Positions 532-63,157 of a DNA stretch of 64,000 bases are shown here, in pieces. This DNA comes from Apostichopus japonicus (lineage: Eukaryota > Echinodermata > Holothuroidea > Aspidochirotida > Stichopodidae). The DNA lies in contig NC_092583.1 in NCBI RefSeq assembly GCF_037975245.1, forward strand, positions 8,889,764-8,953,763, written 5' to 3'. How positions within the stretch are numbered: the first letter of the stretch is position 1; each line of letters starts with the position of its first letter. The notes under the pieces are model-generated. The model saw nothing but the letters and a program-made list of their open reading frames with translations. It was not told where the DNA came from and did no database searches. The position numbers were made by a program, and so were the translations under genes.

Positions 532-965
532 ATTCAAAGTTGACCAAAACAGTACTAAAAGATCAACCAAAGGCATTAGAAGAAAATAGGCAGGAACTCT
601 ATCACAAACTAACTGAAGCAGAAGATGAAAAAAAAACAGCTCACTGAAAGGCTAAAGACAACAGAGGAGGAAAGACAGCAATTGAAAGATACATTGAAGA
701 CAACAGAGGAGGAAAGACAACAGCTGACTGGAAGGCTTAAGACAATAGATGAGGAAAGACAACAATTCAAAGATGCACTGAAGGCAGCAGAGGAGGGAAG
801 ACAACAGCTGTCTGAAAAACTAAAGACAACAGAGGAGGAAAGACAACAATTCGAAGATGCATTGAGGGAAACAGACAAAGACTTCAGAAATACATTGAAT
901 ACAGCTGAGAACAAACTGAAAACATTGAAGGATGAGAAGGAAGAATTACTTCAGCAGCAGAATTG
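532..965 (+). CDS. Gene A coiled-coil exon with two indels
   Basis: The acceptor cag ends at 531 and the donor gt starts at 966. The exon encodes Glu/Lys/Gln-rich repeats with cores of the type TTEEERQQL, strongly predicted to be a coiled coil for oligomerisation. Compared with its paralogue exon 61651-61931, there is one extra A in the nine-A run near 629-637, which leads to a TGA a few codons later. One base is also missing at the 3' end (AATTG against AAAGAG). The exon length still keeps the phase (434 nt, phase 1 to phase 0), but the middle reads in another frame. Either this copy is damaged or the two sites are sequencing errors. The run is longer here than in the paralogue, which has fewer repeat units. 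Confidence 0.7.
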
Positions 966-3900
966 GTTAGACGTCACATAACATGTGATTATAGATATCC
1001 GATGACCAAGTTACCTGATTGGGTCATGAGAAATGTATTTACTAGAACAAGATTACCATTCTGTTTGATCTAGTGATGTAACAGTGAATTTTTAATTTAA
1101 CATTCCAAACACAACATGTATTTTCAGATATTAGGAAATGTTTATGATGTCCAACAGTAGAGGTCCAATAAGAACATGTTAACAGCTCTTTGTCTCAAGA
1201 ATTTTATACAAGCATGATATTTAGTTCATGTGATGTACATTAACTATACACATGTTTATAGAGGTCGAAGGTGGTTTGAGATTAAACGAGGTTCATTTTT
1301 CTAAGACAGTTGTTTGGCCACCATCCTGGAAGTTCCTTTTGGAAGTTAGGTCACAGAGCTCTGCATTAATTTACTTTGAACATGTGATTTCTCTGAGGCA
1401 CCTGTAGTAAATGTTCAGTAGTTCCATCCTCAAGTAAAAGATCAAAATATTATCAGTTCAGCCTGCCTGAAAATAAATGTGAAGAAATTTGTCAACTTGG
1501 AGAATATGTTCCCTTCAGACATGAAAACTTCAATGCTAGTATAAATATTAATATGTGGCAAGTAATCACAAGGAGGTGCGTCCTTCTTGTCTCATTCACT
1601 GTGTTGTTTGCATAACAGGAGCTGGAGGAGGCTAAATCAAGTCTGAGAGCTACAAAAGATGAACTTGTAAAGTCTCAACTGGAATATGCCAAAGAATACA
1701 TGGCCTTACAAGAGGTCTTGAGACAGACTAGGGAAGCCTTGAATCAGCAAGAATTGGTAAAGCTCCTTTCATACTTTATCGGGTGACGGTTTAGAAAGAT
1801 CTGTAGGGCAATGCAATCATGCAGCTTCCGTGACCTGGAAAGGCGATGATGCGTATCCAGAACGGGATGATACGGGTCCAGTATGGGTAACTACGACGTT
1901 GTTATGGGTTGATATGGATGTTACAGATAGATTCCGGGGTCTATCCCGTATATGTACGGACAACTTACGGGTTCTAATACGGCTTTCAACGGGCTGTTAC
2001 GTCTCAATGACGGGTTATTGCCAAGCCTTCACAACATGTTCCAACCCGTAGTAAGTTTTATCAGCCGTAGTGCATACGTACCAATACTTGGCGTGATCCG
2101 TTCCATATGTACCAATACGTACCTTTATCAGCACCAACTGATCACGTGATCACGGCTTACTAGGTCCACTCCATAGGGTTGCTACATATCGTCAACGGGT
2201 TGTCTACGAGTTGCTATGGTTCCTCTACAGGGTTTTCTATCCATGATTTAGACTCATAGTTTTTTAAACAAGTTAAATACTTGTCCACGTATCCGAATGC
2301 CGCTACGGATTTGTACGGGTTGCCACATATAGCTACGGAACATCCCGGTTCATGGCAGATCAGATAACGGATAGTGCCGGATGTACCGATTAGGCAAGAC
2401 CGGGTGCGCGATCTGGGAAAGTAGGAAATGTGCTGTTAAAGTATGATTAAGTTTAGTAAGTGATTTATTACTATATAACTATTCTATGTGTAAATGTAGC
2501 CAGTATACCATCAGTAGAAAAGAAGTTAGGATCATATTGTGACTAAACTATTAATGTGTTACATTTATGATAAAATATTCCACTGTTGAAGTTCTTACAA
2601 GGTGACAACATATTCTTGAGCCTTACAGAGATAGTTCCATGAGTTGAAAAAAAGTTTAAATTCATGCTCCATTTGATTACATGTTGTGTGAAGTGAGTAT
2701 GGGTACATTCACCTATGCTAAAATCAGTTGGTTATATCAGATGAAGTCATAATTTGTGTAACTTGACAGATACCTGACAGAAAGGAAAACAGGTTCTTTT
2801 TGGTTACTTGCCATAGGCAGGCAAGCAACCTATGCCGTCAAGTTTTGCGTGTGTATGGTGTGGGTGCTTGAACAGACACACCGATCATGGAACTGATGTT
2901 TGAACACACACCTAGAAGGGGGGGGGGGAAGGGACGGTGGATGTACGTGTGGGTGTTTGTGTGTTTTCGCACAATTTCGTGTACGTCGAAGGTTCATTTA
3001 AGGTCACCAGGGGTCAAAACTTGAAATTCTTGTAACACAATTTCTCAAAAACTTATTTAACTTAGTTAACTTTGTTGGCTCTCATATTTTGCATGTGGCT
3101 TCTCTATAATAAGGTCAAAGGTCAGCTTATATGCAGTATGAACTTCACCCAGGGTAAGCTTGCAAACTACTCATGTGCTGCATATGTAATGTATTTAAAG
3201 GCAAGTATCCGCTGGGAGTAAGATAACTTTTCTATGTAATTTATTTGTAGACTTCATCTGCATCTGTGACGGCGGAAGAAACCCTACTTGAAGAATGTGA
3301 GTCTCCAGACGTATCGCAGGAATCAACTTTGGCAGGTAGGATCACAATGAAAAGATAATTTACTGCTGCTCAATGTAAATATTAATGCAGGCAGTAAAAT
3401 GTTTCCTTATATCAGTCTGTTTTTACTTAAATAGTCCGACCTGCAGATCTTCAAAGCTGTCAGGAGAGATGTAGGAAGACCGACAGAGGGGCTGGGGGTG
3501 GGGGTGGGGTCCTTGAGTCGATTTAATTAGTGTACATGCATTTTTATACTGGCAATCATGTTGAGATATTGAAATTCAAATGAAGTGTGGACAGTTTTAA
3601 ATATATCAAGGGGTATCACAAGTTAAAGTATTTTGAAAGGGATCAATTAATTTTTGGCATGAAAGGCCAATTGTGGACTTGGTATTGGGATGATTGTACA
3701 AGATGTGTAGTCTTCCTCATTAATCTTTTCTGGTTTTGGTGGATCTTTTTTCTCACCTGAGATCATTAAAGCAATACACTGGTACTAATTTACTACTTAA
3801 AGTTCTCCTTACTCTACCTTGTATTGATAAGTGTTATGAAGATGGAAACAATTGTACCTATGTGTCAAAGTTCACCTGGGTTTAATCATCAAACTGCTAT

Positions 3901-4507
3901 GAAACTTTAAATGTTGCACTACTCCTCTGGTAGTCATGTGATCATTATCTATACCAACAAAATGAAACATCCAGGTATCTGTTGTATATCTGAAACAATT
4001 TTTGCACAATTAAAGTAAGGTCATTTGTAAGTCGATCATAGACATATAAGGGAAGGCTAGACCATTTTAATATGTCAATTATGGGATGTTTAAAAATACA
4101 CATAACAACCAGGGAGGGTCATATGATGTGCTCCATGGTAAGACTTGTAACTTCTATCATCTTTATTGTATTAATGTAGACCTACAACTAATGCCATCAC
4201 TAGATAACTGCCACGGTCCTGAGAAAAAAAAAATAGCGAAACAAGAATTTTAGCTAAGTGATGCACGTATCAATGTTAACTGCAATTTGTCAATTGCTAA
4301 GTTGCTAGTTCCTTCAAGAAGATCAAACTGCAGATGAGACACATTCAGCATATCAGGACTGTATGTGTACAGTGTACATTGACTTAAGTAGCAGACGACA
4401 GGTTTCACTTTTCCTCAGCAACACACGTCTTATTGCATTACATGACTCACAAGCACAGATCAAGTACTTTCTGACACAAAGTGAATTGGATTTCAACGAT
4501 ATCCAGC

Positions 4508-4595
<88 letters not shown>

Positions 4596-7500
4596 AACAC
4601 CTGCAATGTAATTATTGTGAATATTGAAGGAAATAAAAGCCTTACCTAATTCATCATTATTATGTTCCTGCTTTTCTGTCATCAAGTGAGGTAGATCACA
4701 CCCTCCTTAAAGCGGAAGAGTATATTTATTACTTTGAAATCAATGTTCATCTTAAGAGGTGACAGTTAAAGTTGCTATGGTAACACAGATGCTTGTTGTG
4801 TAGATGAGCAGGTACATCATTTGAACTTCAACAAGGAATTAAATTTATTCATATTCACATTGATTATATCTTCTTCTGCTATTGAACTGATTTTAAAGAA
4901 ATTTTTGTTGTTGTTAAAGATTAATGAGATACAAAGCAATCTAATAATCAAATGAATAATTGGAAACTGTGATATCATGCATTATTTAATAATCAGTGTC
5001 ATCAATTGGTTTGTTGTGCTGGGTGTGATTTTTAACTATTATGTATTTTTACTTTTATTTACATTTCAGCTGATTACGGCAGATTAATGGTCAATGTTGC
5101 TGACAATCTCACTCTAGACAGCACTCTGAAATTAGCAACTCTGTTTGGTCTACCACCAGCAGAAACTGATATGCTACGCCGGGTTTCTCTCATAGAGACA
5201 CCAGGAATCACTCTGATTAACTTCATGAAAACACGAAACATCATCAACATGTGCGATGTCACTAACCTACAAAAGGGTTTGGTTTATTTTCAACTAAACC
5301 AATCAAATGAATACCTTTTAGCTACATATCAGTCTAAAGTTGACCCCTTTCTGTTTGAAGAAAACCAATCACCAGCATTGCTTGACTGGCCAGGTAAGAA
5401 CAAATGTAAGTAAGCAATCAGAATACATTAAGCAAAACTAGTATAGTACAGGAAAAACTGTTAGAAATGTGTGTGAGTCAGGGTAATAAGTACAGAAGCA
5501 ATTTGCTTCTTGTGGAGGTCAAAGGTCATTTGGGGTCACCAGGGGTCCAATTGTGAGAACCTTGTAAACACGATATCTCAAGAAGGGAAGCTTGGGCGGA
5601 TCTCATATTTAGATTGTAGAAGTACCACATTGTGTAGCAGTAGCATCTTGATTTTTGGTGGAGATCAAAGGTCATTTGGGGGACAACAGGTCATATCGTG
5701 AGAGCCTTCTAAACATGATACAGTTTTGCAAAAGGAAACCTTGGACAGATCTCATATTTGGTTTTTAGATGTACCATATCAAATTTAAGGAATCTATTAT
5801 TGCTTTTGGACAATGTCAAAGGTCATTTGAAGTCAACAAATGCCAAGCATTTAGTTCACTCACCTCTTACCTGTCTGTTTACACTAACACATATTCTTAA
5901 ATATAATATTACAATGGAAGCTTGGACAGATCGCATGTTTTGGTATGTCACTGTACCACATTGAGAACAAGAAGCCTAATGCTGTGGGCAGAGGTCAATG
6001 GTCATTTGAGTTCACCAGGGTCAAATTGTGAAAACCATGCTTTACACAATATTTCAACAAGGACAGATGTCATATTTAGTATGTTGATGTATCTATCACA
6101 TTAAGTACAAGAAGCCTGTTGTTCAGGTCAATGGTCATTTCAGGACAGCCTATGTCATTGTGAATTTAATGTTTGTCACATCACACTGCTTTTCAATGTA
6201 TTACTAAGATCAAGTAAGTTGTAGACCCTCACTATACATTATGTCAGATTAATGAAGAAAACTGTTCATGTTACATCATCGAAACTACACTGCATTTTTG
6301 TATTCTGGTTTTCTATATCAAAGCTCCAACTGCTGGTGATTGTGTTTCTATTATTCTATTTTTAGTTGAAAATGTCAAATTTGTCCCCGATGATGGATCA
6401 ACTCCACCACAAGCTTCTGATGAAAGAGAGGAAGATTATGACAATAGTAAGGAGAGTTTGATGGAGAGAACAGAGACAAAAGAACTACCAAAACAAAAAA
6501 AAAATTCAAAAATACTTGAAATGAGGCAACATCACTCGTACATTGAACATGGAATAAAGTGTGACGGTGGAACCATTAGCGTCATGGGGGTACATCTGAC
6601 TATTCCCGAAGACGCTTTATCCGGTGAAGGTGTAATTTCTGTTAAAGTGATTTATGATCCTGACATACACCTCCTTGGAAGTGCTCGTAGAGGCAGAATG
6701 ACACCCCTGATAAAAGTAGAGCCAGAAGGACTCGCCCTCAACAAGCCAGCTCAGCTGACTATTCCTCACTCGGCCATTATCCCTGAGCCAGATCGACATG
6801 ATGTTATTATCTTCACTGGTCTGAAAGATGAAGAAAATTTACAAGAAGGTAAATATGGTGACCAAAGAGCACTTTAAATGCATTTGATGAAGTTACCAGG
6901 AGAAGTAAAATAAGTTAAATACTCAGAATCAGCATAGTAAAATATATCTTACTTAATAATCTCTTGATATTTACTGTATTTAGGATTATTAAGTAATATG
7001 TTTTGTATAATATTACTTACCATAGGTGAAATAACTTGGACTGAAGAGAAATCTGTTGAATGGAAGCTAGACCCGGAGAAGATCAGTCTTGATATTAACA
7101 TCCTGAGCTACGTCTTTGTTAATTTAGTCAGCCAAGAAACGGAACAGAAGCATATATTCCGTATTGTTCCATTTATTGACGGGATACTTGATGCCAAAGA
7201 TGATGTCTTAATAACTGTTTGTTTCTGTAAGGACAGTGATAAAGATTACAAGGTGAGGATAATCTCCTGTTACCATGGTGATATCTGTAGCAGTGTGAGG
7301 TAAATTCTGCGTTGTGCTGTGATCTTTAAGTCGGATACTGGGAAACTTGCTTTCTTTCATGATTTGTATCATGAATTTTATTATGGTTTACTCGCAAATT
7401 ATGAAGTGATTAGTTAGGGGTGCATTTCTGTGACATATTTATTGATTCATAACAGCACAAAAAAAGAAAACACTGTTTCATTTGGAAAACAAACAGTAAA

Positions 7501-10500
7501 TACAGAAAACAAAGATTAAGTGGATCTGATAGAAATAAGCATATAATTGGAAATTTTATTCATTTAAGAGAACAGAAACTGATGTTACTTGTTGTAGTAG
7601 TATTGATGAAGAATAGTGAAGCACAACAAATTGTATAGTTGACTCTGCTTTTTTTTCATTTACTTCTCCATGTTCTTATGTTTTAGTTGCTGTTAGAGGA
7701 CCATCAGTCCAAACTTATTCTAGGAAACTATACAACATTTCAAGTTACCCGGACATTTAATGAGGGCAGAGATTCTTCTTCACACATTGAGCTGATCACG
7801 TCATCGCCCGGTGATAGTTACTATCTGATAAAGGAAGAATCAACAAAGGTTTGTACTCACCAATGCTACTAAAATTTGTCTCCTAACATTACATGTAAGA
7901 CTTGTAGTTAAGGATTGGTTACCTAAATTGGATCAAATTTTGTAGTGGTTAATTGTTGGCCCTACAGCTACCTATTTGTGGTTAAAAATGCCCAGCAGAG
8001 ACTAGAATCTATGCAAAACCTCTGGTGTACAGTGCTGTTTAGCAGAATCTTGTGAGAATTTGGATGATGAATGGGGTTGTCTTTAATCAATTCCTTGTTC
8101 TGAGGTAGTGTTCAGATGATGTGGCAAACTCTCAGTTGCTTAAGTGGGATGTTGATTAGGTAGCTATTCTATGAGCAGGCATGAGTGAGACAAACATACC
8201 TGCCAATCAATTCTCTGAACACTCATCGCAAACAGAAGGATTGATGTAAGCCGTCATACATATACAATCACAGGAACATCCATGGTTGGACTATATTTCC
8301 GAAGGGTTTCTATCCCATGGTATAAAATAAAGCTGAATGTTGTTATGGAATTCTGTAGTACAATAGAATGTGTAACCATCACCATGCTGTCGATGAAATC
8401 TAAGGATTTTTTGCATGGCCGCATGTCTTGGGGGTTCCTGACCAGTTTTTCCATAATTCTTCTATACGTATGTGGTATTGTTTCTTTGAATCGAATCAAG
8501 CATTCTCATCCTCAGTGCATTGATTTTCAATATCCTTCATTTATTAGTATGTAAGCATTGATCACCTCTGTGCTGCCAGTAGAGTCTCTCATCAGTTCAG
8601 ACTTAAAAGAAACAACGATGGAGACACTGACATGGTTGATGTGAAGTTAATAGTATCACAACATGAAAAGAACCAGACAGCCCTTATCCTCCAGTCAAAG
8701 GTAAGTTATGTCTGCTGATTGTCTTCCAGCTGTTTGTGTTCTCATATGACTCTTCATTACATAATATACAGTGGCATATTCTCTCTTCTGATCATTTCTT
8801 TGCTTAGTAATGTCCTGCCTGTTGGAAGTATTGCAACTGTTTTCAGGCTGTCTGCTTAATGTCAGCACTGTTACTGAATTCTAGTTATTCGTTGGCATGT
8901 TCTCTCATGGATCCTTTCCTTAGTAATATTCATGGTAGATGCATGCCGATTGAATTGAATATATTAGTCTGTTTTTCAAGTATTATCTTTTTGTCAGTCA
9001 CGCCAGTGATCATGGTGTAGCTCAGTATCTTACTTGATACCATTTTCCAACTATCTCTAACGCATTTGTGTTGCTTTGTAATATATGTGTAACTCAAAAT
9101 GCAGTGAAATGCTGAACCAAATGTACATATCATCTGTGCTTTATTCTATGCATAGGTCAACAGTTATTGGGAACTTTGTTTTGTGTGTATCTTAGGTACC
9201 AATTAAATACTCCATACGTGGTAGGTATATGTTGTCATTAACATTCCTTTTCTTGGAGTTTTACATTTATTATGTTTGTTCCATGTCTGTTTCAGCTCAA
9301 TTATTCTACATTTCATTCCTACGTTAAACCTATTCACATGGTGTGATAGATAGTCTGCACTACTGTATATTAAGCATTCATACATTTAAAGGTTTCATTA
9401 GTCATAATTTTTGGTTTTTCTTCAGGTGAAAAACATTCTTTTATCTCCAGAAAGCCGTAAAATTCTTTTTAGAGAACTACATCCAGGTGAGTTTTTAAGT
9501 GGAAGTTGAACAAATGGTAGGACTAGTTTAAAAAGACCACCCTGACCTGAATCTAAGTGAAGAAATTATGAATGCTCATTATCCTAGACATACACAAGGT
9601 AAGTATGTATTAGTGGAGATGAAAAAGTAAGAACGCATACAGAACATAGACCCAAATGATTGTCTAAGTAGAGGTAAAACTGTAACAGCATTTGGTTTTA
9701 GAAGTAGACACACCTGATTGTCACTTATAACAACAAAGGATATTGTGAAATATTTAATCAAAAACTACTTTGTAGCTCAAGCCAACTTTTGAAAGTGAAA
9801 CTGTATACAAGACTAGAATTAATGCACAAGACGAGGGCTAAAAGTTGAAAAGTCGCACGCAAGTTGTGGACAGTATACTTAACCAATTTATTGTTTGCAC
9901 GCATCAGAGGGTGACTTGCATACCAACGTTCTCCATGCATGTTTCATGCTTTTTGTAGGCCCGTTGTATACTTGTCCAAATTGTTCAAACCTGGCACACA
10001 TTTAGCCTGTAATTCATGCACTCTTAGTTATACATGCGAACCTAGTATTTTCTCCTTTGAATGTGATGTGGGTGTTGTTGTCATCACTTTCAGACTTACA
10101 CAAGTATGACAAGTTGAGAGGAGACATTGCAAAGCTTCTGGATCAACAACATTGTAAACAGCTAGGCACATTCTTTGGGCTCAAGCCAGCAGAAAAAGAA
10201 ACAATTCAGGAAGCAGCAGAATCTGGAGAGATACTGATGAAAATATTGGATGAAAGAGAGCTCATCATGCCAGACAGAATGATCAGACTGTATGAAGGAT
10301 TGAAAGCTATTAACTTTAATAAGGTGGCAAGACTGGTGCTGGAGTACATTGATACGTCACATGAGAAGAATGGAAAGGAATACGAAGGAGAGAAAGATTA
10401 TAAGAAAATGGTTTGTGCTTTGTAAAAACTTGTTAAGACTTAACACTTTAAGCGTGAAGCAAAACAAATGTCACTTTGCATAAAATCAAGTTCTTAGAAG

Positions 10501-13500
10501 GTCAGAAGGCCTAGTACACTCTGTACTTTCTAATATGCAAAGTATTCTTTTTGCTGTCATGCAATTCTGTCTAAAAATTCATGCTTTCACTCATTGTGAT
10601 AGTTTCTGTTTACCTAAAGTTACGTTAGTAGATATCAAATGCACAGGAAGTATGTGTAGACATTTACTTAGCCAAATCAAATGCAGTAATTAGTTTCCTA
10701 TCTTCATGACAGAATGATAAAAAAATGATTTAAAAACAATTTGTATTATTTCAACATTTATGTCAGGTAAAAGTTCCAGAGAAACAGGTAGTCATTTCAA
10801 AAAGGGAACCACAATTATCAGTAAATTTCAAAATGTTGATAGAAGAGGGATACAAGAGACTGGATGTCCAAAGAGCCTTGAAATTGTCTCATGGAAAGCT
10901 GGACTTGGGAAGACGGATATTGCTGCTTGCTAAGGGAGAGCATGGTAATGTACCCATATAATCAGCTACATGGGTATTTCTTATTTATGTCTTCCTGATT
11001 AAATCAACCTCAATCTTATTTGACATTCTAGGACCACATTTCATGCCATTTGGCTGTTTCAGTTATCATGGTAGAAATGGATTTTGTTATTTATTTTTGT
11101 AGGAATATTACGCACAAAATAGTTGCAAAATAGAAATATAATCTAGATGCTGTAAATCAACCTAATTATTGTTACCGTAAATGAAAAATTCTCTTCTACA
11201 TCAATTTCCTTGAATCACATCAAACATGTCTAATGTTCACTCTTCCACATTAAAGTATATGTTGATTCTTCATTATTGTTTATCTACAATAACCAATAGA
11301 AACAGTTTTGTGTTGAAGAGCCAATTTTCATAAAGTGAACTGAAACAGTATATGCAATTAATTAATTTTTTAAATGAAAGTGGCAAAATACTTTCCTTTC
11401 ACATGAAATATATAACTTTTCTCCTCCAGAGAGACTTCCTTTGTTCCCTGGGTCAAATCTATATAAAGAACAATACTTTGATCAGCATGGAGGAGAGGTG
11501 GTTATCGCAGGTGTCATTCTGCGTGTTCCAGCTGGGGCACTACACACTGGAAGGATTGTTAGTCTGTGGGTTTCTACTGAACCTGCCATTAAAGGACCTT
11601 TATCAAACAAGAGTCTGAGGTTGACCCCCTTCGTGAAATTTGGTCCAGAAAGCCTTACCTTTCACAAGCCTGTCACCTTGATTATTCCACACTGTGCTTT
11701 TACTACAACAAACCAGATGGGTATTAATGTGTACTCTGGTGTCTTACAAAAAGGTCTGTTTCATTATTTTGTCTTGTGTTGTGTTGTGTTTTTCTACTCC
11801 AGTGAGCTTGATATAAAGTTACTAACATTTGTCTCATTAACAGAAGTATGTATATGAGCTTGTGTGTACCATCTCTTGACATGATAGTTGAAAGTGCATA
11901 ATTGTGTTATTTGACACTGGGAGTGTGGTGCCATATTAAATGAATACAAATCCATGCTTATCTGTTGAGGTAAAATTCTAAAACATTTGTAAGCACAATT
12001 AATGATTCAACAAAGGTTATGTGAACATATATGTACTATTCGGATCCACTAGGGTATGTGAAACAAATTTAAAGTGTTTTGCTCTGGTTAATGGGTCATT
12101 TGAGGTTAATATGTGTCAAAGCCTGAAAACATTCAAAACCTTCATAACTGCTAAAGTAAAGCAAGAAGGACAGTCACATTGATATGTGAAGCCATCTAAG
12201 TACACAAACACAATATAGGAACAAAAATCACTAGACATCTGGTTCTGTGTAATGTAAACGTCAATATCTCAAGAAGGAGGTAAGGTTGAGACAAATATTT
12301 CCCATTTCAAGGAACCTTTTAGTTGTACCTTGAGAGCAAACATTTCAAATGTTGCACATTTTCGGGAGAAATAAGCAACATTTCCAAAGGGAAATAATAT
12401 CCCTAAAGCTATGTTAAACTTGAGGGTTTCATCCAGTGACCTTGCATCCATACATAGAGCTAGAAACATGATATCGTACTATTTCGATGTTCTGTATGCA
12501 CTGCTGCATTTCCTACCACCAGATTGTCCCTTTAAAGTCATATATGATATAGGTTAGGATTGGTGTTCTACCTTTCATCATCTTATAAACACTTACTAGC
12601 AAACTGTTTTTGAATTTCAGATAAATCTGTCAAATGGAGCTTAGAAAGGAAACACCTCAGCTGTTCTATGAATAGTCAGCACCTTGCAGTTGAAGCTCAG
12701 AAACCCTGTCTCATTGGTCTTCATGTCCCTTTCGTACCTAAGATGAGGAAGCGTGTTTGTGTTTTACCGATTGCAAACAGAGTTTCTGATCCAGGGGATC
12801 AATTGACAATCCATCTTTGGTTTCATAATGATGATACACTGGAGCATGAAGTTAGTAACAGCTTTGTCATTCGAGTGGTATTGCTAATTTTCTCATGGAT
12901 TCCAGTTGTCTGCCTTTCTGTATGACACATGGTTCATGGTTCATACACAGAATAGCGATGGAAATGATTAAATTCTAGTTTGATACCCTACAAGCTCAAA
13001 TCTCTCCGACAATCAAATTGTGATGATACAGTTAAGGGAATGGTCAAGTGAGATAAGCTTTTTAAGGCTCTCTGTGGTCATTAATGGTTGAAAACTATAA
13101 CCTTACAGTGCTCAAAAACATAATGATAAAATGTCCGAGAACAAAACTGAGTGCTCAATAGTTTATTGTTGGTGGTCATTGACAACTGACAACAAACTTG
13201 TGATTACAGACACGTTTGTAAACACACCTTGACCAGGTGTTCAAGATTAGACAGCGAAGATTTATAGTTCAGAACAAAGGCTGTTAGACTATTAATGATC
13301 TTTGATAATGCATCCTATCAGACATTCCATTATATTCGATATTTATAGCATCTCCTTTATGTTTCGAAGAATGACCACGTGGGCCATTTTCGGGGAGCAG
13401 TTGTTTTTGCTTCTTGGTCGTACATAGGACAACTAAGCAGTGTGTGCAATGTTGTTAATATTCAAATTTACATTAATAATAATATAATATTAAATTGTTT

Positions 13501-15971
13501 CTTTTTTTCATGTTAATAGAGTCTTATCCATGAAGAAATCTACCAGCAAAAGGGAACCATAATTCATGATCCTCTATCTTTTCAACTCAAATCTATGACT
13601 TCAACTTTACATCTTAGCACTAACTCCAGTACATCACAGTCTAATCCACATCCTAGAAAAGTGGTTAGTAATACTTGTAAAATATTCTTATTTATGTGTC
13701 GGCAAAATGCAAAGAATGCATCTAATTCCTGTTCCACAGGTAATTTGCATTTGTTGGAATTATAGTTCTATGCATATGTTGAGTGGTATGTATATGGTGT
13801 AAGCATATGTTGTTATACAAATAAACATCATGAATTTTAAAACTGTTTCCTTCTATCATCCCTATGATATGCAATGGATGAAAGGTCCCGGCTGCAGTTG
13901 TCTATACAGTTGATTTCATTATGGACTAGTCCTTCATTCCATCCTCATTGACTGTCCATGTATTAATTATATAAGTACTTTTTAATGTGTGTAACTGTTA
14001 TGGTCTCTTACTTGTCTTGCATGTTGTTGATAATACGAATAATCATTCTGTTCAAAGCTTATATGAGCTGAATAGAATATTAAGTTGATAGTTTATAGTC
14101 TTGTCTCAAGGCCAAAGCCTGGACAAATAAATTTACAACATCCATCAATCTCAATATGCCTCATTCCATTAGTTGGTCTTAAAGTACTTCAGTTCACCAT
14201 ATATGTTCCCACTGGGGGACATGTGTGCGGTCAAAGTTAAGCACACAACTATATTTACAAGTTACTTTGCATTTTCCAATGTATACACCTGGATAAAGAC
14301 TGGCAATTGAGGTTAATTCCTTACTCAATGCCAGATCGTTACTATCCAGTCGACCAGTATTGAGACCTGCATTCTTTAAATTGCAAGCCTGGTGCCCTAA
14401 TAAGTTTACCATCGTGCTCAAGGCTCTCAAAAGTTAAATTAAATAATAATTAATCATCTCTGTATTTTTCTCTCTTTAAGGATATTGCTATGGAAACCCT
14501 ATGGGTAAACAACAGACACAAGGTAGAATTCCATCTTCAGAATGAAGGGATCAAAGATACTGTCAATCTGGAAATAGAAGCAAGATATGGGATGTCCATG
14601 AAGAGTCTATTCCAGCTGGATATTCAGTTGCAGGTAACTTAATTTTGGTTTAAATTAACACACAGAAAAATTTAATACAATGAGTTTAACATTTTACTTT
14701 GGGATTTATCTCATCTACTGAGACTCCTTTTATACTTATTTATTTTTGTGTCTTTACCATTATTATATTCTCTAATTAAGTCATGTTTCCATTTTATTGA
14801 AATTTATACTTTTTTTGCCTAAATTAATGAAGTGATTTCCATAATAATGGTTTGAAATATCATGTGACAATTTTACACAAAGCAAAAATCCATATGACAA
14901 GCCGTCTTCATATCACAAATATAATACATACGAAATATCCTAAACAGTAAATACTAATTAGCATATCTTAACATTATCGCTTAAACCACTTTTTGATACA
15001 AACTGTCAATTTCAAGAGGTGCACAAACTAATTTTCTAAGAGAATCATCAAGCTTTTCCTCTTCATTTCCTCTTCACAGATTGACAAATTACTATATATT
15101 GACCAAATCACATCTCCATTCCAGCTCATCCTACCTGAATGTGAGTAATTAATTACGATATTTAAAAAGCACGTACTTAACTGTATGCTATATGTTAAGT
15201 GTTGATGTCTGCTTTACAATCCTTTCATGTGAGATTTATACATGTAATCTTACTTTTCATAAATCATTATTTACATACTGCCTATAATTCCTTACATATG
15301 AGATGTATACAACTAATCCTACTTTGCATTGAGGAGTCCTGGTGCAGTTGCCATGTCATAACTATCATCTATTTGCAATATTTGATATTAAGAAAACATC
15401 AGTTTTGACACCAAAGCAAAACACTTAAAGACTTGATATGTATATATACTATATTGAAGTCTCACTGCAGTAAAAATTAAAAATTCATGAAATTCAACAA
15501 CCTGTTTCAAAATATACATTTGTCTATTTTGTCAGTGTGTGTAAGAAACACATCACTGCTGTCTCACAATTCTGAATATTGTTTGCACGAAACAGGTTCT
15601 GCTGATTTTACTGTATGTAGAGTAATATATATTTAATATTAACAATTTCCTTTTCTTTCAACCTCACAGCCATCATCAACTCTTTTGATCAGCTAAAGCA
15701 GAACTTATCAGAACACCTTGATGTAGACCAATCTACCCTGCTGGCAAATATTTTCAAACTTCCTGAGGAAGGAATCTCTGATATCAAGAAGCACAAAACG
15801 CCAGGAATTTTTTTGTTAGAGAAGCTGACCAAAAAATCACTGATATCTCCCACAAACATCACAAAATTGGAAAATGCCCTAACAGAACAAGGCAATGAAG
15901 AATGTGCAAAACTTGTCAGAAAATTCAGAAGTAGAAATCCTGTAGTTCAAGCAACAATGTGCCCAGAATAA
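532..15971 (+). CDS. Gene A: multi-exon ZU5-UPA-death-fold adaptor protein (5' end outside window)
   Basis: Seventeen exons can be placed, all plus strand: 532-965, 1619-1756, 3251-3335, 5070-5393, 6366-6848, 7026-7252, 7687-7848, 8548-8700, 9426-9486, 10094-10410, 10767-10944, 11430-11753, 12621-12850, 13520-13663, 14481-14633, 15080-15140 and 15670-15971 (TAA). All introns are GT-AG, and phases agree at every junction. From 1619 on, the frame is open for about 1,113 residues. Domain order is coiled coil, death fold 1, ZU5-1, UPA-1, death fold 2, UBA-like, ZU5-2, UPA-2, death fold 3. ZU5-UPA-death-domain supramodules are known from UNC5, ankyrins and PIDD, where they act in receptor or death signalling. 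No signal peptide or membrane segment is seen, so a cytoplasmic adaptor is likely (inference). The first coding exon(s), probably a DED as in the paralogue at 60.7 kb, lie upstream. Exon 532-965 carries two compensating indels. Confidence 0.85.
1619..1756 (+). CDS. Gene A second coiled-coil exon
   Basis: The exon has 46 codons, phase 0 at both ends, acceptor cag at 1616-1618 and donor gtaaag. It begins ELEEAKSSLRATKDELV and continues the heptad pattern of the previous exon. The paralogous exon 63020-63157 has the same length and nearly the same protein sequence, differing at only a few residues. That conservation supports it as genuine coding sequence despite the damage in the exon before it. 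Confidence 0.85.
1786..2411. repeat. ACGGGT-rich intronic repeat, copy 1
   Basis: About 630 bp, conspicuously richer in CG and in the words acggg, cccgt and cgtac than the AT-rich introns around it. A homologous segment sits at about 63183-63780, in the same intron of the paralogous gene. It encodes nothing convincing. It could be an old MITE-like insertion that predates the gene duplication. Confidence 0.5.
3251..3335 (+). CDS. Gene A acidic linker exon
   Basis: This 85-nt exon follows ttatttgtag and ends at gtaggat. It runs from phase 0 to phase 1 and joins the flanking exons in frame. It encodes a short acidic Ser/Thr/Glu-rich linker (core TAEETLLEECE) with no recognised domain. It is supported only by splice signals and phase, so it is less certain than the domain exons. 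Confidence 0.6.
4509..4593. repeat. (TA)n microsatellite
   Basis: Nearly pure TA dinucleotides in the intron before exon 5070. Similar tracts lie at 16206-16275, 18803-18935, 18984-19130, 20556-20644, 29574-29655 and 36639-36679. All produce Tyr-Ile reading-frame artefacts. Confidence 0.95.
5070..5393 (+). CDS. Gene A death-fold domain 1
   Basis: The exon is 324 nt, phase 1 to 1, bounded by acatttcag and gtaaga. The translation shows a helical bundle pattern: LKLATLFGLPPAETDML, then the hydrophobic-spaced run ITLINFMKTRNIIN, then NLQKGLVYF. The spacing matches the two later death-fold exons at 10094 and 15670 (G-L-x-P-A-E, then a LL-x-x-L-like helix, then N/D-x-x-x-L). I call it DED/DD/CARD-like without choosing a subfamily. 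Such domains bind each other homotypically in death and inflammatory complexes. Confidence 0.7.
5510..6140. repeat. ~145-bp tandem repeat with nuclear-receptor DR1-like core
   Basis: Four or five degraded units whose common core is ggtcaaaggtcatttggggtc, followed by a stretch like aaacacgatatctcaa. Unit starts are near 5516, 5661, 5811, 5990 and 6124. The unit at 5516-5528 is a perfect AGGTCA-A-AGGTCA. The short ORFs inside are by-products. Confidence 0.75.
6366..6848 (+). CDS. Gene A linker plus ZU5 domain 1
   Basis: The exon is 483 nt, phase 1 to 1, between tttttag and gtaaat. The first 55 or so residues are a charged, low-complexity linker. The remainder is a ZU5 domain: a CDGGTISVMGVHLTIPEDAL strand pair, then MTPLIKVEPEGLALNKPAQL, then TIPHS. 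The IPxxAL and KPxxLxIPH signatures are the classic ZU5 landmarks shared by UNC5, ankyrin, ZO-1 and PIDD. ZU5 packs against UPA and the death domain in those proteins. Confidence 0.88.
7026..7252 (+). CDS. Gene A ZU5-1/UPA-1 junction exon
   Basis: The exon is 227 nt, phase 1 to 0, with acceptor catag and donor gtgagg. It encodes the last ZU5 strands and the start of UPA (SVEWKLDPEKISLDINILS, then FRIVPFID). The place where PIDD-type proteins carry the self-cleaving His-Phe-Ser motif reads Ile-Leu-Ser here, so autoproteolysis is not expected. The matching exon in the second module is 12621-12850. Confidence 0.8.
7687..7848 (+). CDS. Gene A UPA-1 middle exon
   Basis: The exon has 54 codons, phase 0 at both ends, acceptor ttttag and donor gtttgt. 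It is beta-rich, with alternating hydrophobics (KLILGNYTTFQVTRTF, then SHIELITS). It occupies the same position in the module as exon 13520-13663 of the second unit, but the two have diverged strongly. Confidence 0.7.
8548..8700 (+). CDS. Gene A UPA-1 exon
   Basis: The exon is 153 nt, phase 0 at both ends, with acceptor ttattag and donor gtaagt. It encodes SRVSHQFRLKRNNDGDTD followed by a strand and a helix. Exon 14481-14633 of the second module has exactly the same length (51 codons) and an alignable pattern (HKVEFHLQNEGIKDTVNL). I chose this start because it is the only acceptor that gives both the right phase and the homologous N-terminus. Confidence 0.72.
9426..9486 (+). CDS. Gene A UPA-1 terminal mini-exon
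   Basis: This 61-nt exon runs from phase 0 to phase 1, between ttcttcag and gtgagt. Its length and phase are identical to those of exon 15080-15140 in the second module. It links UPA-1 to the second death-fold domain. Confidence 0.72.
10094..10410 (+). CDS. Gene A death-fold domain 2
   Basis: The exon is 317 nt, phase 1 to 0, with acceptor ctttcag and donor gtttgt. The helical pattern is LRGDIAKLLDQQHCKQLGTF, then GLKPAEKETI, then ILMKILDERELIMPDRMIRL, then LVLEYID. This is the clearest of the three death-fold domains, with the helix 4-5-6 spacing of DED/CARD/DD proteins. It directly follows UPA-1, as in the ZU5-UPA-DD supramodule. Confidence 0.78.
10767..10944 (+). CDS. Gene A UBA-like segment
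   Basis: The exon is 178 nt, phase 0 to 1, with acceptor tgtcag and donor gtaatg. After a basic linker it encodes FKMLIEEGYKRLDVQRAL, then KLSHGKLDLGRRILLL. This matches the UBA three-helix pattern (M/L-x-x-x-G-Y-x-x-x-x-x-x-x-A-L, then x-G-x-L-x-x-A/G). UBA domains bind ubiquitin. The assignment rests on pattern only. Confidence 0.55.
11430..11753 (+). CDS. Gene A ZU5 domain 2
   Basis: The exon is 324 nt, phase 1 to 1, between ctcctccag and gtctgt. It shows DQHGGEVVIAGVILRVPAGA, then LTPFVKFGPESLTFHKPVTL, then IIPHC, which are the same ZU5 landmarks as in ZU5-1. Together with the exons that follow, it repeats the whole ZU5-UPA block of the first half of the protein. Confidence 0.88.
12621..12850 (+). 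CDS. Gene A ZU5-2/UPA-2 junction exon
   Basis: The exon is 230 nt, phase 1 to 0, with acceptor atttcag and a weaker donor gttagt. The translation has SVKWSLERKHLSCSMNSQHL, then VLPIANRV. The expected His-Phe-Ser self-cleavage position is again absent. It corresponds to exon 7026-7252. Confidence 0.78.
13520..13663 (+). CDS. Gene A UPA-2 middle exon
   Basis: The exon has 48 codons, phase 0 at both ends, acceptor ttaatag and donor gttagt. It is Ser/Thr-rich (STLHLSTNSSTSQS) and more linker-like than its counterpart 7687-7848. It is supported by phase, splice signals and its place in the duplicated exon pattern. Confidence 0.65.
14481..14633 (+). CDS. Gene A UPA-2 exon
   Basis: The exon is 153 nt, phase 0 at both ends, with acceptor ctctttaag and donor gtaact. 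It encodes HKVEFHLQNEGIKDTVNLEI and SLFQLDIQL. Its length equals that of exon 8548-8700, which supports an internal module duplication that kept exon structure. Confidence 0.78.
15080..15140 (+). CDS. Gene A UPA-2 terminal mini-exon
   Basis: This 61-nt exon runs from phase 0 to phase 1, between cttcacag and gtgagt. It has the same size and phase as 9426-9486. It encodes IDKLLYIDQITSPFQLILPE. Confidence 0.75.
15670..15971 (+). CDS. Gene A last exon: death-fold domain 3 and stop
   Basis: The acceptor is acctcacag, the exon enters in phase 1, and TAA lies at 15969-15971. It encodes a helical bundle: FDQLKQNLSEHLDVDQSTLL, then GISDIKKHKTPGIFLLEKL, then ISPTNITKLENALTEQG, then AKLVRKF. This resembles DED/CARD-like domains and the two earlier death-fold exons of the same gene. 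A C-terminal death fold after UPA is the arrangement seen in UNC5 and PIDD. Confidence 0.8.
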
Positions 15972-16275: not shown

Positions 16276-17610
16276 TCTATGTGACTACGTCCATATTGGT
16301 ATACTTGCCTTTAATAGGCAAACAATAACAAGTATCATATGCAACCATTTCAGTATGTGTGTGCGTGTAAGATGCCGTACTTTGTCAACATAATATCTCA
16401 ACCACATTATTAATGTTGACAATCCTGATACTATTGATGTATAGCTTCCCTATTGTGATTACAATGTTGTGAATGTTGTGGTGGCTCTCAAAGGTCATAT
16501 AAGTTCCAAATATGGCAAAATGTGAAATCGTTCTATATCAGAATAATAGTAACTTCGACAGAGTTTTAATATGGAAGGTCCATTGTTTGACACACTTGGA
16601 CTGATGTGTCAGTTTGTACATCAACCTGTTACTTAAAGATGATGTTTGACAATTCCCATCAAGATTGGCTACTTCTGAAAGGTATATTCGGTGGATCAAA
16701 CAATTCTAAGATAATTACTACTTCCTTTGGTCAAACCACATCCGAATAGCCTATCTTTGTGGAAAGATATGAATTTGTTAAATATGATCCTAGTAAGTTG
16801 TGAATGCATCTGGAATTAACAGAATGAATGTCATGATGGTAATTGAGCTGAATGTGTTCTGTTCTTCATAGTATCTATATCATGTATGTATAGAAGTATA
16901 AACAATCTTCAATAAAAGCTGAGAGCTGATGAACTATCTGGCTTTCAAAGAAATGTACATATTAACATTATTTTATTGACAATACATAAACAAACTCAGT
17001 AATCATTGATTATGAATGTATAGAGTTGGTATTACCTCTAAGTTTAAGGGTGATGGGAGGGGGACTATGCCATTACCAAATGTATCTCTGGATAAAGTGG
17101 AAGTAACAGATTCAAAATACATTACAACAGGACTCTCAATACTCATTTAAGTACAGAGATCAAATGGTTCTCATGAAGACCTTGATTATAGGTTTTACTT
17201 TGGCATACCTATTCGTTCATGACCCTTTTTTAAAAAAACCACAACCCTTCCATACGTATATACCTTTGTTGAACAGATTTTTTTGGGGGGCATTCCTATA
17301 GAAACTCGGGCAAACATTAACTCCTACACATGTATCAAGTAACTCTTCTATTCATTTAGTACTAGTTCTCTTGATGTGACCCAGCAAGTGGGATCTCAAC
17401 CTGTTAACGACAACTTTTACTCTCCTTTCAACGCGATATCTTATGTGCTTTGGTGATTTAAAAGTTTTTTTTTTTAAGAATGAATATTGATATTTATAAC
17501 TTTTTCATCCTTGACTTGTCGATATTTGGATAGTTTGGGATATATTTGACCACAGGCAGAACATGTATATAGAAACTGTATATAGAGAATAAAATTAATC
17601 TTCGCATTTT
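15972..17610 (+). promoter_or_regulatory. Gene A 3' UTR region with two poly(A) signals
   Basis: Downstream of the stop lie a (TA)n tract at about 16206-16275 and canonical AATAAA hexamers at 16911-16916 and 17588-17593. Either could end the transcript. No other coding signal is seen in this stretch. Confidence 0.5.
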
Positions 17611-32144: not shown

Positions 32145-33962
32145 TTAGTTCAGTTTAGTTTAGTAGAAAAAAGGATCAGGAGGGACACTTAAGTCCCCAT
32201 CAAGGACCCTATAGAGAGAGAAAAAAAAATGAACACACAGACACTCAGACCCGATTACAATGCTTAAAGTGCTTGTCCAAAGCATTCTTAAACCCATTCA
32301 CACTACTTGCAAGTACAACTTTCTCAGGCAAACCATTCCACTCATTCACAACCCTATTAGAAAAAAAATTATGCCGAATATTAATCCTACTATGCGACTT
32401 TTGGAGTTTAAGACAATGATCTCTAGTACAACTACTGTTAGCAAACAAGAAAAAGTCGGTAAAGGATAAATTGTCGAAACCATTCACAATCTTGAAAACC
32501 TGGATCAAGTCCCCACGTAACCTCCTAAGCTCCAGTGTGGTGAGATTCAACAGTTGTAACCGCCTATAATAAGGAACCCTCTTTAAGGAACTAATCATCC
32601 TAGTAGCCCTCCTCTGGACCTTTTCAAGTACTTCCGTATCCTTAGCAAAGTAAGGGTTTCAAGCCTGCACAGCATACTCCAGATGAGGCCTAACCAACTG
32701 CTTATAAAGCCTAACTACGATGTCCTCTTTCAGAAAACTGAAGTTCCTCTTGATCATACCTAAAACCCTATTACCTCTTTTAGCAGCTTCAAGACAATGT
32801 TTAGAAGGTTGCAGAGATGAGTCAATGTAGATACCTAGGTCTCTTTCAACAGAGACCTCCTGTAACTCCACACCATTAAGATTGTATGTAAACTTTTGGT
32901 TACTACTACCAATATGCATTACCTCACATTTATCAATATTAAAAAGCATTTGCCACCCCTGAGACCAGGAAAAAATCTTATCCAAATCCGCTTGAAATTT
33001 CTCAGAATCGCTTTTGGAAGAGACCTCAGAATACAATTTGGTGTCATCAGCAAACTTCTTAGCTTTACACCAAATATCTCCGTCATGTCATTTATATAGG
33101 CAACAAACAACAAGGGACCTACCCTTGTGGAACCCCACTAGTAACGTTCTGCCAAGAAGAAGCACAGCCTTTAATTACCACCCTCTGTTCCCTATTACCA
33201 AGCCAATTCCCGATCCAAGACAGTAAATTCCCTATGACACCCATGCTCTTCAGCCTAAGTAAAAGACGCTGGTGGGGAACTTTATCAAAGGCATTCTGGA
33301 AATCCAGGAACACGACATCTACAGACCTCTGCCTATTTAGTGAACTTGCTACATCTTCCATAAACTCAAGGATATTAGTGAGACAAGACCTTTTTTGACA
33401 AAAGCCATGTTGAGACTCTCTGGTCAAAGACTGACTGCTGAAGTGACAGACCATAGACCTTTTAACAATAGACTCCATGACCTTACAAACTACACTAGTG
33501 AGACTAACGGGTCTATAATTACAGGGCTTAGACTTATCACCCTTCTTGAAAATTGGGGTAATATTAACACATCTCCAGTCCCTAGGAACATAACCTTCAT
33601 CCATAAATTTACTAAAAACCAACGAGAGTGGAACGCAGAAATGGTGTGCAAAAGTCTTCAACAAATACGGATGGATTGCATCCGGTCCAGAAGCTTTAGA
33701 AACATTTAGACGAAGCAGCTCCTTTAAGACAACCTCATTCGAAAATAAGACCGTATCCAGTTAAAGCCTATCACTGCCCCCCTGAAAATCTGGAATACTA
33801 CTCGTATCTTCCCTTGTGAAAACCGACACAAAATAGTTGTTCAAAAGATCTGCAAGATCCTGACTATCAGTTACTATATTATCAGCCTGTGGTGCCCTAA
33901 GAGAAACAATTGCATCTTTTACTTTCTGCTTTGACCTGACATAAGAAAAGAAAGTTCTTCAG
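32145..33962 (-). mobile_element. 5'-truncated, inactivated CR1/Jockey-type LINE
   Basis: On the minus strand it encodes the reverse transcriptase core: FKKGDKSKPCNYRPVSLTS, then FLDFQNAFDKVPH, then SGVPQG, then FADDTKLY, then RDLGI and the C-terminal thumb and tail, ending near 32245. The endonuclease half is missing. The frame is broken by a deletion after SGVPQG (about 33119), a further shift before FADD, a stop after SLQP..YAVQA (about 32658) and another in the linker. The 3' end carries a short aaactaaactgaact repeat, as is typical for CR1-like tails. The element abuts the copy of gene B exon 2, so it either interrupted it or replaced its 5' half. Confidence 0.88.
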
Positions 33963-34815: not shown

Positions 34816-35879
34816 GTGAGACTAAGTTTGTTTGTTTCCGCCAGTTGAAAAATGAATTAAATGAATTTCTTTGATTTACAATGGGATTAAAATCTGTCCA
34901 GAATAATCCAAACTGTCGACAGATATTATGAACATGCAGGTTACTCAATAGTCACGTGGATTACGATGACAAATAATAACGAATTGGAAAAGGGAAAGCA
35001 TGAGCGAACGATTGTATATGGACAAATTTACATTGATTGAATTGTCACATGAACAAAATGACCAGCATTCCAACTGACGAAGTTGAATATGAAACATCTT
35101 GAGTGACGATCTATATCGAATATTTTTCTATAGACCTGACGTATGGAACGCGAAATGGGACAGAATGTGGGAAGTTATACTAAGCTAAATGCTTCTGTAC
35201 TTTCTGACGAGTTAGACGATGAAGCAGAAGTGGGGGGGGGGGGGGTGTTAGATCTGAGCGGGGAGGATTTATATGGTAGAGATCAATATTTCTCATTGAT
35301 TCTAAGGGCAGAGGCGGAGGAAGAAGTTTAATTTGGGTACGTTGAGAATGAGCACTGGGACATTGAGACATGCTAACTGATTCGATGGGACAGACACAAA
35401 CTCAACTCAATACGGCTCGACAAAATGGGTCCTTGATGCATTTTTCAACCAAACGGAAATTAAATTATAATTTTTACTCTCGCGATAAAGAGCACTTTTA
35501 AATAATATGTTTTCAAATTTCTCATCAAAGAGGCACTCTTTTTTATAAAAAGAGTACACCTTTTTAATTACGCGAAATTATATTTTTGGCCATTAACACA
35601 ATGGAAAAAATTAAAATTTATGTAAAGGGAACCCTCTGAGGTTTTTCGAAAGATAGGTCCCTAACCCAGAGTGATGTCAACCAGCGAAGGAAAAGCAATG
35701 ATGAATTGAACGCATAGTTTCGTGAAAAGATTCATATTCAATTAATTGGAGAACTTTGTGTGATGTTTGTACTCCGGGACGAGAAATAACACTCATATGT
35801 TAATATATACTAAAAATTAGAATTATGGTCGAGTTTTAATAACAGTCTCTTCATGTTTCCTTATTTTTTTTCAATTTAG

Positions 35880-46940: not shown

Positions 46941-47129
46941 GTAAGTATTAATACAGGATATATAGGCCTATGGTAAAAATTGGGACTATTTTTAACTTTT
47001 ATTAAAGCAATCCTTTGATTGAAGCTCAACAAATTGGGTATCATTCTATGCAAACAAGCCTGAGGAGAAGACACTCTTACATGTTTTGAGATCTACTTTG
47101 CAAATTTTAAAGAAAAATAAAGACATTTT

Positions 47130-60692: not shown

Positions 60693-60963
60693 AGTGACAT
60701 CATGACTTTTCAGAACCTCCTGATGTGCTCAGAGTCATTGGTTGAGAAAAAAAGCTGTAAGAAGCTACTTGACTACTTTGAAGTTCCAGCTAAGAAATCA
60801 AAGGGCTTTATAAAGAGTGATACACCCTTTTCATCTCTTGTCCACTATCTGAAAGAGGCAGGGAAGGTTTCTGTTGATGACATCAACTATTTAATGAGAG
60901 CATGCTCTGACAAAGGACTGAGTAAATTGATGGTAGTTTTGACCCTCTACCAACAAGCTCAAG
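60693..60963 (+). CDS. Gene C DED-like exon
   Basis: The acceptor is gttatag and the donor gtatgt, phase 0 to 1. The translation has FQNLLMCSESLVEKKSCKKL, then FSSLVHYLKEAGKVSVDDIN, then LSKLMVVLTLYQQ. This is the DED pattern of helix 1, helix 4-5 (L-x-x-x-G-x-V/I-x-x-x-D/N) and helix 6. The RxDL motif of many DEDs is not seen. In gene A the matching exon would lie left of the window. Confidence 0.72.
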
Positions 60964-63157
60964 GTATGTTTATATCAGAGAGCTTGAAAGTTAAATATGC
61001 TATGAACTGAAAAAAAATTCAAATGCATTGCCAACACATATAATAGATGCAATTTTAGGTAATATATCATTGTATTAACTTATCTTTATTAACCCATTGT
61101 TGATAAGAAAAAGACCCTCCATCAACACCATTTGATACAAATAATGTGGTAAATAAGTTGGGGAAAAATCTAATAACAGCAATTGCCTGTAAAATACTTA
61201 AAACCCAGAAAGAGAAACCAATGTAGATGTCAAGGTCTTACATAACAGTCAAATCTTTGGATAGGTATGTAACTTATAATAGGATATACTCAAAAGTTTA
61301 TGTTCAGACAAGATTGGTAAAATTTGGGAATTTCCTTTCCTTTTGAAATTGATAACTCAATATCTTTGATAGATTGGAGGTTCATTGAAGGGTCTTAACT
61401 TTGGTAAATTGCTCAGAAGTAGGGCCAAAATCAAAACCAAGTCAATTTGCAGTGCCACCTCTAATAACATGCTAAAGTTGGACACAAATTTGAGCTCACT
61501 AAATTTGGTGCAAGTTTGTCACAATATTTTCCGGAAAGGTTGTACAGCATAAATAATTAACATACATTGAACTGTGTATATTAACATAACCAAATCTCTT
61601 GGGTTGAAGAAAATCTTTAACCATGTTTGCATCTTATATGTTTGTTTCAGATTCAAAGTTTACCAAAACAGTACTAAAAGATCAACTAAAGGCATTAGAA
61701 GACAAAAGACAGTTACTCTCTCACAAACTAACTGAATCAGAAAATGAAAAACAACAGCTCACTGACAGACTAAAGATAACAGAGGAGGAAAGACAACAGC
61801 TGTCTGAAAGACTAAAGACAACAGAGGAGGAAAGACAACAATATACATCGACGGCAACAGAGGAGGAAAGACAACAATTCAAAGATACATTGAAGGCAAC
61901 AGTGGAGGGAAGACTTCAGCAGCAGAAAGAGGTTAGATTTCACATATCATGTGATTATAGATATCTGATGACCACGGTACCTAATTTGGGTCATGAGAAA
62001 TTTATTTACTATCAACAAGATGACCTCTCTGTTTGATCTAGTGGTGTAACAGTGAGTTTGTAGTTTACCATTCCAAACACAACATGTTTTTTTTCAGAAA
62101 TTAGGGAATGTTTATGATGTCAACATTAGAGGTCTAATGATAAACATATTTACAGCTCTTTGTCTCAAGGATTTTTGTGCAAGCGTGATATTTAGTTAAT
62201 ATGATGTAAATTTTAGTATTTACATATTAATAGAGGTCAAAGGTCATTGAGGGTTAAGCAAGGTCAATCAATGTATGTAAAGGTAAGACAATCAAGAAGT
62301 GGAAATTTAAAAAAAGATCCTTCTAGGCGTAAAACTTTCACATCACAAGTAAAAGATCTCTATTGTATTTAAATCTTTAAGTTCTTCACCTAGTATACAG
62401 GTCTCTCTTGATTCACACAGGTAAAAATATTTAATTTCTTTATATCAGTGACAGATCTTTCAGAGGGATGCAATGTATGGTGGAATGTTTTGTTTATATG
62501 GAAGTTCTCTACTAAACTGAAGTTATACCACATTGTCCCAATTGTTAAAGTTCACTAGCAAAACTATGTATGTGCTATTGCACAATATGTAGTAGATTAA
62601 ATCATATTATGGGACTCATTGACCATCAAAACATAAAATTAATCAAACAAATTTATATAATTGAACGTCTGTCCTTCAATGTGATAGGGCTACATTCATT
62701 TTACAAAGACAGTTGTTCGGCCACCATTCCTGGAAGTTTCTTTTGGAAGTTAGGTCACAGATCTCTGCATTAATTTACTTTGAACATGTGATTTCTCTGA
62801 GGCAGGTAGTAAATGTGCAGTAGTCACATCCTCAGGTAAAGATCAAAATATTATCAGTTCAGCCTGCCTGAAAATAATGTGAAGGAATTTGTCAACTTGG
62901 AGAATATGTTCCCTTTAGACCTGAGATACTTCAATGCTAGTATACATTTTAATATGTGGCAAGTAATCACTGGGAGGTGCATCCCTCTTGTCTCATTCAC
63001 TGTGCTATTTACATTACAGGAGCTGGAAGAGGCTAAATCAAGTCTGAGAGCTACAAAAGATGAACTTGTGAAGTCTCAACTGGAATATGCCACAGAATCC
63101 ATGGCCTTACAAGAGGTCTTGAAGCAGACTAGGGAAGCCTTGAATCAGCAAGAATTG
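60693..63157 (+). CDS. Gene C: DED and coiled-coil exons, paralogue of gene A (3' part outside window)
   Basis: Three exons join in phase: 60693-60963, 61651-61931 and 63020-63157. The first encodes a DED-like six-helix domain, and the next two a coiled coil almost identical to gene A. Introns are also homologous to gene A (164-2610 against 61297-64000). The death-fold/ZU5/UPA exons are expected beyond the window, by analogy. The first ATG is at 60702, but the frame is open back to the acceptor, so the exon may instead be internal and spliced from the propeller exon at 46073-46940. Confidence 0.75.
61651..61931 (+). CDS. Gene C coiled-coil exon
   Basis: The exon is 281 nt, phase 1 to 0, open throughout, with acceptor tttcag and donor gttaga. 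It encodes Glu/Lys/Gln heptads (TEEERQQLSERLKTTEEERQ). It is shorter than the gene A copy (434 nt) because it has fewer repeat units. It provides the intact reference frame that reveals the two indels in gene A. Confidence 0.85.
63020..63157 (+). CDS. Gene C second coiled-coil exon
   Basis: The exon has 46 codons, phase 0 at both ends, between acattacag and gtaatg. It is nearly identical in protein to gene A exon 1619-1756. Confidence 0.87.

Follow-up and report, generated by a model that had tools for sequence, protein, structure and literature searches.

A sea cucumber gene with two successive DED-like, ZU5 and UPA-position units apparently specifies a scaffold for cell death or immunity

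A 64,000-nucleotide stretch of the genome of the sea cucumber Apostichopus japonicus (contig NC_092583.1 of assembly GCF_037975245.1, positions 8,889,764 to 8,953,763; hereafter the window) holds near its left end a gene whose product is apparently a scaffold protein for cell death or immunity. It is quite probably a single animal gene, shaped by internal duplication of a block made of a death effector domain (DED), a ZU5 domain, and a UPA domain, and adjoined by at least one tandem paralog. Its product would run DED1, ZU5, UPA, DED2, a UBA-like domain, ZU5, UPA, and DED3, behind a further DED (DED0) and a coiled coil that are deduced from the paralog. The gene is called copy 1 and the paralog copy 2, and the features of copy 1 are as follows, with the basis of each in brackets.

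532..965 (+), first coiled-coil exon, built of 42-base (14-residue) repeats, with internal stops
1619..1756 (+), second coiled-coil exon, phase 0/0 (gene model; copy 2 comparison)
3251..3335 (+), linker exon (gene model)
5070..5393 (+), DED1 exon, death effector-like by homology (z 10.6 to DED2, 12.6 to DED3)
6366..6848 (+), linker and ZU5 domain a (gene model, Pfam)
7026..7252 (+), UPA-position exon 1a (gene model, module comparison, UNC5B comparison)
7687..7848 (+), UPA-position exon 2a (gene model, module comparison)
8548..8700 (+), UPA-position exon 3a, 153 bases (gene model)
9426..9486 (+), UPA-position exon 4a, 61 bases (gene model)
10094..10410 (+), DED2 exon (gene model, predicted structure, structure ranking)
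10767..10944 (+), UBA-like exon (match to the UBA of Cbl; poor structural model)
11430..11753 (+), ZU5 domain b (Pfam; PDB match to UNC5B, E 9.4e-05)
12621..12850 (+), UPA-position exon 1b, alternative donor 12877 set aside (gene model, module comparison)
13520..13663 (+), UPA-position exon 2b (gene model)
14481..14633 (+), UPA-position exon 3b, 153 bases (gene model)
15080..15140 (+), UPA-position exon 4b, 61 bases (gene model)
15670..15971 (+), DED3 exon with the stop codon (gene model; homology to DED1; cFLIP comparison)
16911..16916 (+), candidate poly(A) signal, the first AATAAA past the stop codon (sequence scan)

Rebuilt from the raw sequence, positions 1619-15971 yield 16 exons spliced into a single open frame of 1113 residues, with a terminal stop at 15971. 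The first-pass annotation had placed the exons at 5070-15971, where they are indeed present, and two more lie upstream of that range (1619-1756 and 3251-3335). All 15 junctions are GT-AG and phase-consistent, and the 1114 codons contain the terminal stop alone, where about 68 would be expected at the local intron stop frequency; the phase agreement and the openness are partly by construction, because boundaries were hand-picked, with adjustment after a first guess (donor 12850, for example, was preferred over 12877), and exons were chosen as open stretches. In a leave-one-out codon test, in which the non-model frames are handicapped by stops, the model frame scores best of three in 16 of 16 exons. 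Across the 1113 residues, Pfam matches adaptor-type domains and no enzyme family, and no membrane-like span is found (top 19-residue hydropathy, 1.28).

The duplication is most visible around the ZU5 domains. Pfam recognizes ZU5 in two stretches, the number claimed earlier, with an E-value of 3.2e-21 and 75.8 bits, passing the gathering cut-off of 21. Against PDB, ZU5 b matches UNC5B and ZO-1 at E-values of about 1e-4, ZU5 a matches ZO-1 alone (E 0.1), and a two-module profile additionally finds ankyrins (ankyrin-2 ZU5, E 0.0026). Behind each ZU5 exon come four more, measuring 227, 162, 153, and 61 bases in module a and 230, 144, 153, and 61 bases in module b, and the junction phases from the entry of ZU5 to the next DED agree in six of six cases, which bears out the equal exon pairs and matching phases reported by the first-pass annotation. 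The two modules align with a z-score of 22.6, reached by none of 500 shuffles, and at 96.7% in single-sequence hhalign; by sequence comparison, then, the two ZU5-led modules are homologous to each other. Together, the paired ZU5 domains, the module homology, and the six shared phases support the earlier description of an internally duplicated scaffold. Relatives were also sought in viral contigs with ZU5 b (one stretch matched, none confirmed) and in bacterial and archaeal genome contigs with ZU5 a (136 stretches, none confirmed), results that carry little weight because those collections hold no animals. An NCBIfam search with two exons returned nothing useful.

The exons after each ZU5 domain are likely UPA, although this is unproven by any profile. 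Parts a and b resemble each other (z 5.7, with none of 500 shuffles as high), and a whole-module alignment to UNC5B, forced past ZU5, stays collinear through UPA. Four UPA exons had been announced, and the count is to be corrected to four UPA-position exons per module, or eight in total.

The three death-fold exons are mutually homologous in sequence comparison. DED3 also resembles the second cFLIP DED, with z-scores of 4.9 (local alignment) and 5.4 (global alignment), while the predicted model of DED2 is a confident six-helix bundle with a pLDDT (predicted local distance difference test) score of 95.4. When this model is ranked by structure, rows 1-22 are all DEDs, before the first death domain, among the 50 entries listed. 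Because the three exons are homologous and the DED2 model ranks with DEDs, the death-fold exons look like DEDs and not like the usual death domain; the three announced death-fold exons are retained, with their type revised to DED-like. Death domain, CARD, and PYD were set aside for these exons, as they rank below DEDs for DED2. Pfam finds no Death match in the 1113 residues, and it likewise misses DED in the same protein, with no DED match for DED1, DED3, or the DED0 exon of copy 2. Several other matches are taken as chance, namely a designed helical repeat for DED3 alone (E 0.0016), parvalbumin for DED0 alone (E 0.65-1.3), and the sub-threshold Pfam matches HTH_3 and DUF6429 for DED3 and DUF5662 for UPA b. 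Simple secondary-structure propensities are uninformative. The exon between the two modules matches the UBA of Cbl weakly (E 0.019, with 11 of 35 residues identical), which is suggestive of a UBA domain.

A number of results weigh against these assignments. The lead of DEDs over other death folds for DED2 is about 2 Z units, within a helical bundle; Foldseek gives DED2 a best E-value of 0.048, with top rows that mix in some CARDs and designed proteins; and the Pfam DED score of DED2 (E 0.1, 13.3 bits) lies far below the cut-off of 35.9. Profiles of DED1-3 built without the copy 2 exon find no DED in PDB, returning lipoxygenases only (E 1.1) or nothing; with that exon added, weak DED matches appear. 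For the UPA part, Pfam gives no match down to an E-value of 5, so that the profile check proposed by the first-pass annotation succeeded for ZU5 and failed for UPA. The comparison with the UPA of UNC5B is not significant for part a (z 0.5 local, 1.0 global) or part b (z -0.1 local, -0.1 global), profile comparison of UPA alone with UNC5B in hhalign stays below 1% probability, and single-sequence hhalign of part a against part b reaches 1.8% only. The label "UPA-position exons" is used because no UPA profile matches and the UNC5B comparison is not significant. The UBA-like exon, claimed earlier as such, keeps its weak Cbl match; its identity stays suggestive because Pfam has no UBA match for it and its single-sequence model is poor (pLDDT 64.2). 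In addition, AATAAA occurs within introns at 8326, 13820, and 14126, in copy 1 the first exon of the coiled coil reads out of frame, and the function is read from the architecture alone.

The N-terminal part is best seen in copy 2, which starts at 60693 and continues past the window edge. Its exons are listed below. Searching the window by tblastn (E up to 0.05) with the scaffold protein and DED0 as queries finds no further copy of the exons that encode them.

60693..60963 (+), DED0-like exon, ATG at 60702 (relation to DED1-3 weak, z 1.9-4.5)
61651..61931 (+), first coiled-coil exon, in frame (sequence comparison)
63020..63157 (+), second coiled-coil exon, any later copy 2 exons lying beyond the window

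Copies 1 and 2 share three long blastn matches at 78.6-83.4% identity, and their non-coding sequence is 85.5-89.0% identical with gap columns excluded. The second coiled-coil exon lies above these flanks, with 132 of 138 bases identical (95.7%) and three of the six differences changing a residue, and the first lies below them, at 233 of 281 bases (82.9%) outside gaps, with a different number of repeats. By eye, exon 532-965 of copy 1 differs from copy 2 by one base gained in an A run and one lost near the donor. Because this exon is out of frame, copy 2 is the evidence for an N terminus of DED and coiled coil: the earlier statement that these two elements precede the modules matches the order seen in copy 2, and for copy 1 both are deduced from it, with the DED0 exon of copy 1, if present, lying left of the window. 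The 42-base tandem repeats of the coiled coil occupy 635-865 and 61746-61840, in unequal number between the copies. A separate minisatellite-like repeat, with a unit of about 144 bases, is common to the intron between DED1 and ZU5 a of copy 1 (5489-6172) and the region upstream of copy 2 (58728-59579).

The frame of exon 532-965 raises the question of whether copy 1 is decaying or shortened, and so either non-functional or expressed in a form that starts further in. The internal stops of this exon and its identity to copy 2, lower than that of the non-coding flanks, fit such a history. Against it, the 16 exons spanning 1619-15971 keep an open frame and have GT-AG splice sites throughout; the second coiled-coil exon exceeds its flanks in conservation, even though half of its differences change a residue; and one of the two frame changes falls in an A run, a frequent site of assembly faults. 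Decay of copy 1 is considered rather improbable, and since it can coexist with the duplicated-scaffold reading when the whole array is considered, the two likelihoods are not exclusive. Somewhat less likely still is a division into two adjacent genes, each encoding a DED/ZU5/UPA protein, one ending at DED2 after a short read-through to a stop past 10410 and the other starting with the UBA-like exon. The DED2 exon frame does extend to a close stop (open stretch 10006-10422), and modules a and b are similar in layout. However, donor 10410 and acceptor 10767 are in phase, no AATAAA or ATTAAA lies between them, and the earliest ATG in the frame of the UBA-like exon sits within the UBA-like match. 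Because of the missing signal and the position of this ATG, one predicted gene for the whole scaffold is probably the better supported model.

A different function would follow if the protein were a self-cleaving ZU5-UPA sensor of the PIDD, NLRP1, or CARD8 kind, with a DED replacing the CARD or death domain, as the order of ZU5, UPA-position exons, and death-fold domain might suggest. PIDD, CARD8, and NLRP1 self-cleave at Phe-Ser, and in CARD8 a change of the Ser abrogates cleavage and a change of the Phe severely impairs it, according to the text of PMC3210808. The motif (HF/S or SF/S in PIDD and the FIIND proteins) occurs nowhere in the 1113 residues of the scaffold. Autoproteolysis of the PIDD/NLRP1 type is rejected because the required Phe-Ser is absent, which leaves the self-cleaving sensor highly improbable, and release by conformational change is therefore proposed.

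For the duplicated scaffold, the coiled coil would cluster molecules. In UNC5, the ZU5-UPA unit packs on the death domain and holds it back; by analogy, each ZU5-UPA unit of the scaffold may pack on its neighbouring DED and restrain it, a restraint also comparable to the repression that the N-terminal fragment exerts on UPA-CARD in NLRP1 and CARD8. CARD filaments of CARD8 and NLRP1 are promoted by UPA oligomerisation, as described in part of PMC7794386, and once ZU5 lets go, UPA-assisted clustering might similarly allow the DEDs to seed DED assembly, which could recruit FADD or caspase-8-like partners. A link to ubiquitin might be provided by the UBA-like domain. A tandem DED-scaffold family, with two ZU5-UPA clamps per chain that restrain the flanking DEDs and form a cleavage-independent, self-contained seed for DED filaments, with the UBA-like domain as the site of gating by ubiquitin, is offered as a tentative proposal that may well prove wrong.

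Among the closest known proteins is UNC5, whose intracellular supramodule consists of ZU5, UPA, and a death domain. ZU5 b matches UNC5B, the order of ZU5, UPA-position exons, and death-fold domain is shared, and the scaffold lacks Phe-Ser; in UNC5b, according to PMC3210808, the position of the Phe is taken by Leu (the text of that paper also mentions the ZU5/death-domain interface of UNC5b). Unlike UNC5, the scaffold carries the module twice and probably has DED-like exons in place of the C-terminal death domain, with no Pfam Death match, a DED3 that resembles a cFLIP DED, and a homologous DED2 that ranks with DEDs; the membrane span and extracellular immunoglobulin and thrombospondin domains are not found in its 1113 residues, the 5' end lying outside the window. 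PIDD, NLRP1, and CARD8 (FIIND) likewise have ZU5-UPA followed by a death-fold domain, but the scaffold has DED-like exons instead of a death domain or CARD, lacks their cleavage motif, and shows no NACHT or leucine-rich repeat match in the part within the window. Ankyrins share two ZU5 domains, and the two-module profile finds the ankyrin-2 ZU5, but their order is ZU5-ZU5-UPA-death domain, whereas four UPA-position exons, a DED, and the UBA-like exon separate the ZU5 domains here; ankyrin repeats are not matched in the part within the window, which excludes the 5' end. MACC1 and SH3BP4 combine ZU5 with more than one death-fold domain (for MACC1, as given in part of PMC11585957), paired near the end and not interleaved with ZU5 modules as in the scaffold; they also carry an SH3 domain between ZU5 and the death domains, and the 1113 residues have no SH3 match to an E-value of 5.

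The order thus differs from UNC5, PIDD, and ankyrin, as the first-pass annotation had held, but its suggestion of an undescribed system is not sustained: its components are already familiar, and fusions that join DED proteins to UPA-Zu5 or FIIND have been published. Invertebrate TRADD-N proteins of the DEDD2 clade, usually with a DED, are fused to FIIND and to a UPA-Zu5 module in the text of PMC8195603, and DED-containing FIIND proteins are named in that of PMC3210808. The DEDD2-clade fusions share with the scaffold a death-like domain, usually DED, joined to UPA-Zu5, together with lineage-specific expansions, and differ in that TRADD-N is not matched in the scanned scaffold proteins, the 5' exons of copy 1 lying outside the window. 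On the text of PMC8195603, these fusions are the nearest printed precedent, and the same order may appear in its figures. The literature search, which covered text passages, found no paper describing this domain order. The novelty is an arrangement of known building blocks, the DED-ZU5-UPA unit twice in a row, and not a new kind of system.

Other features occupy the window between and beside the two copies. A protein kinase exon (27673-28332, Pkinase E 3.4e-20, within 26707-28335) is accompanied by sub-threshold Pkinase matches at 26707-26991 and 35821-36159, which are alike by eye and suggest a duplicated kinase gene between the scaffold copies. Reverse transcriptase fragments, a retroelement remnant, lie on the minus strand (33122-33760, RVT_1 E 2e-17; sub-threshold at 32662-33087). 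A satellite array with a 179-base unit in about 18 copies spans 50011-53272, and a unit at 55954-56398 resembles, by eye, its reverse complement. An open stretch of 310 residues (46044-46973) looks by eye like a beta-propeller tail, with no Pfam match to an E-value of 0.1.

Death domains and CARDs are the main partners with which ZU5-UPA units are known to occur. A protein in which the unit is repeated among DEDs, with no self-cleavage motif, would connect this clamp with the caspase-8/FADD branch and would reveal whether release without cleavage suffices to seed death-fold assembly. The presence of at least two copies in the window fits the lineage-specific expansions of death-domain scaffolds in marine invertebrates that are described in the text of PMC8195603.
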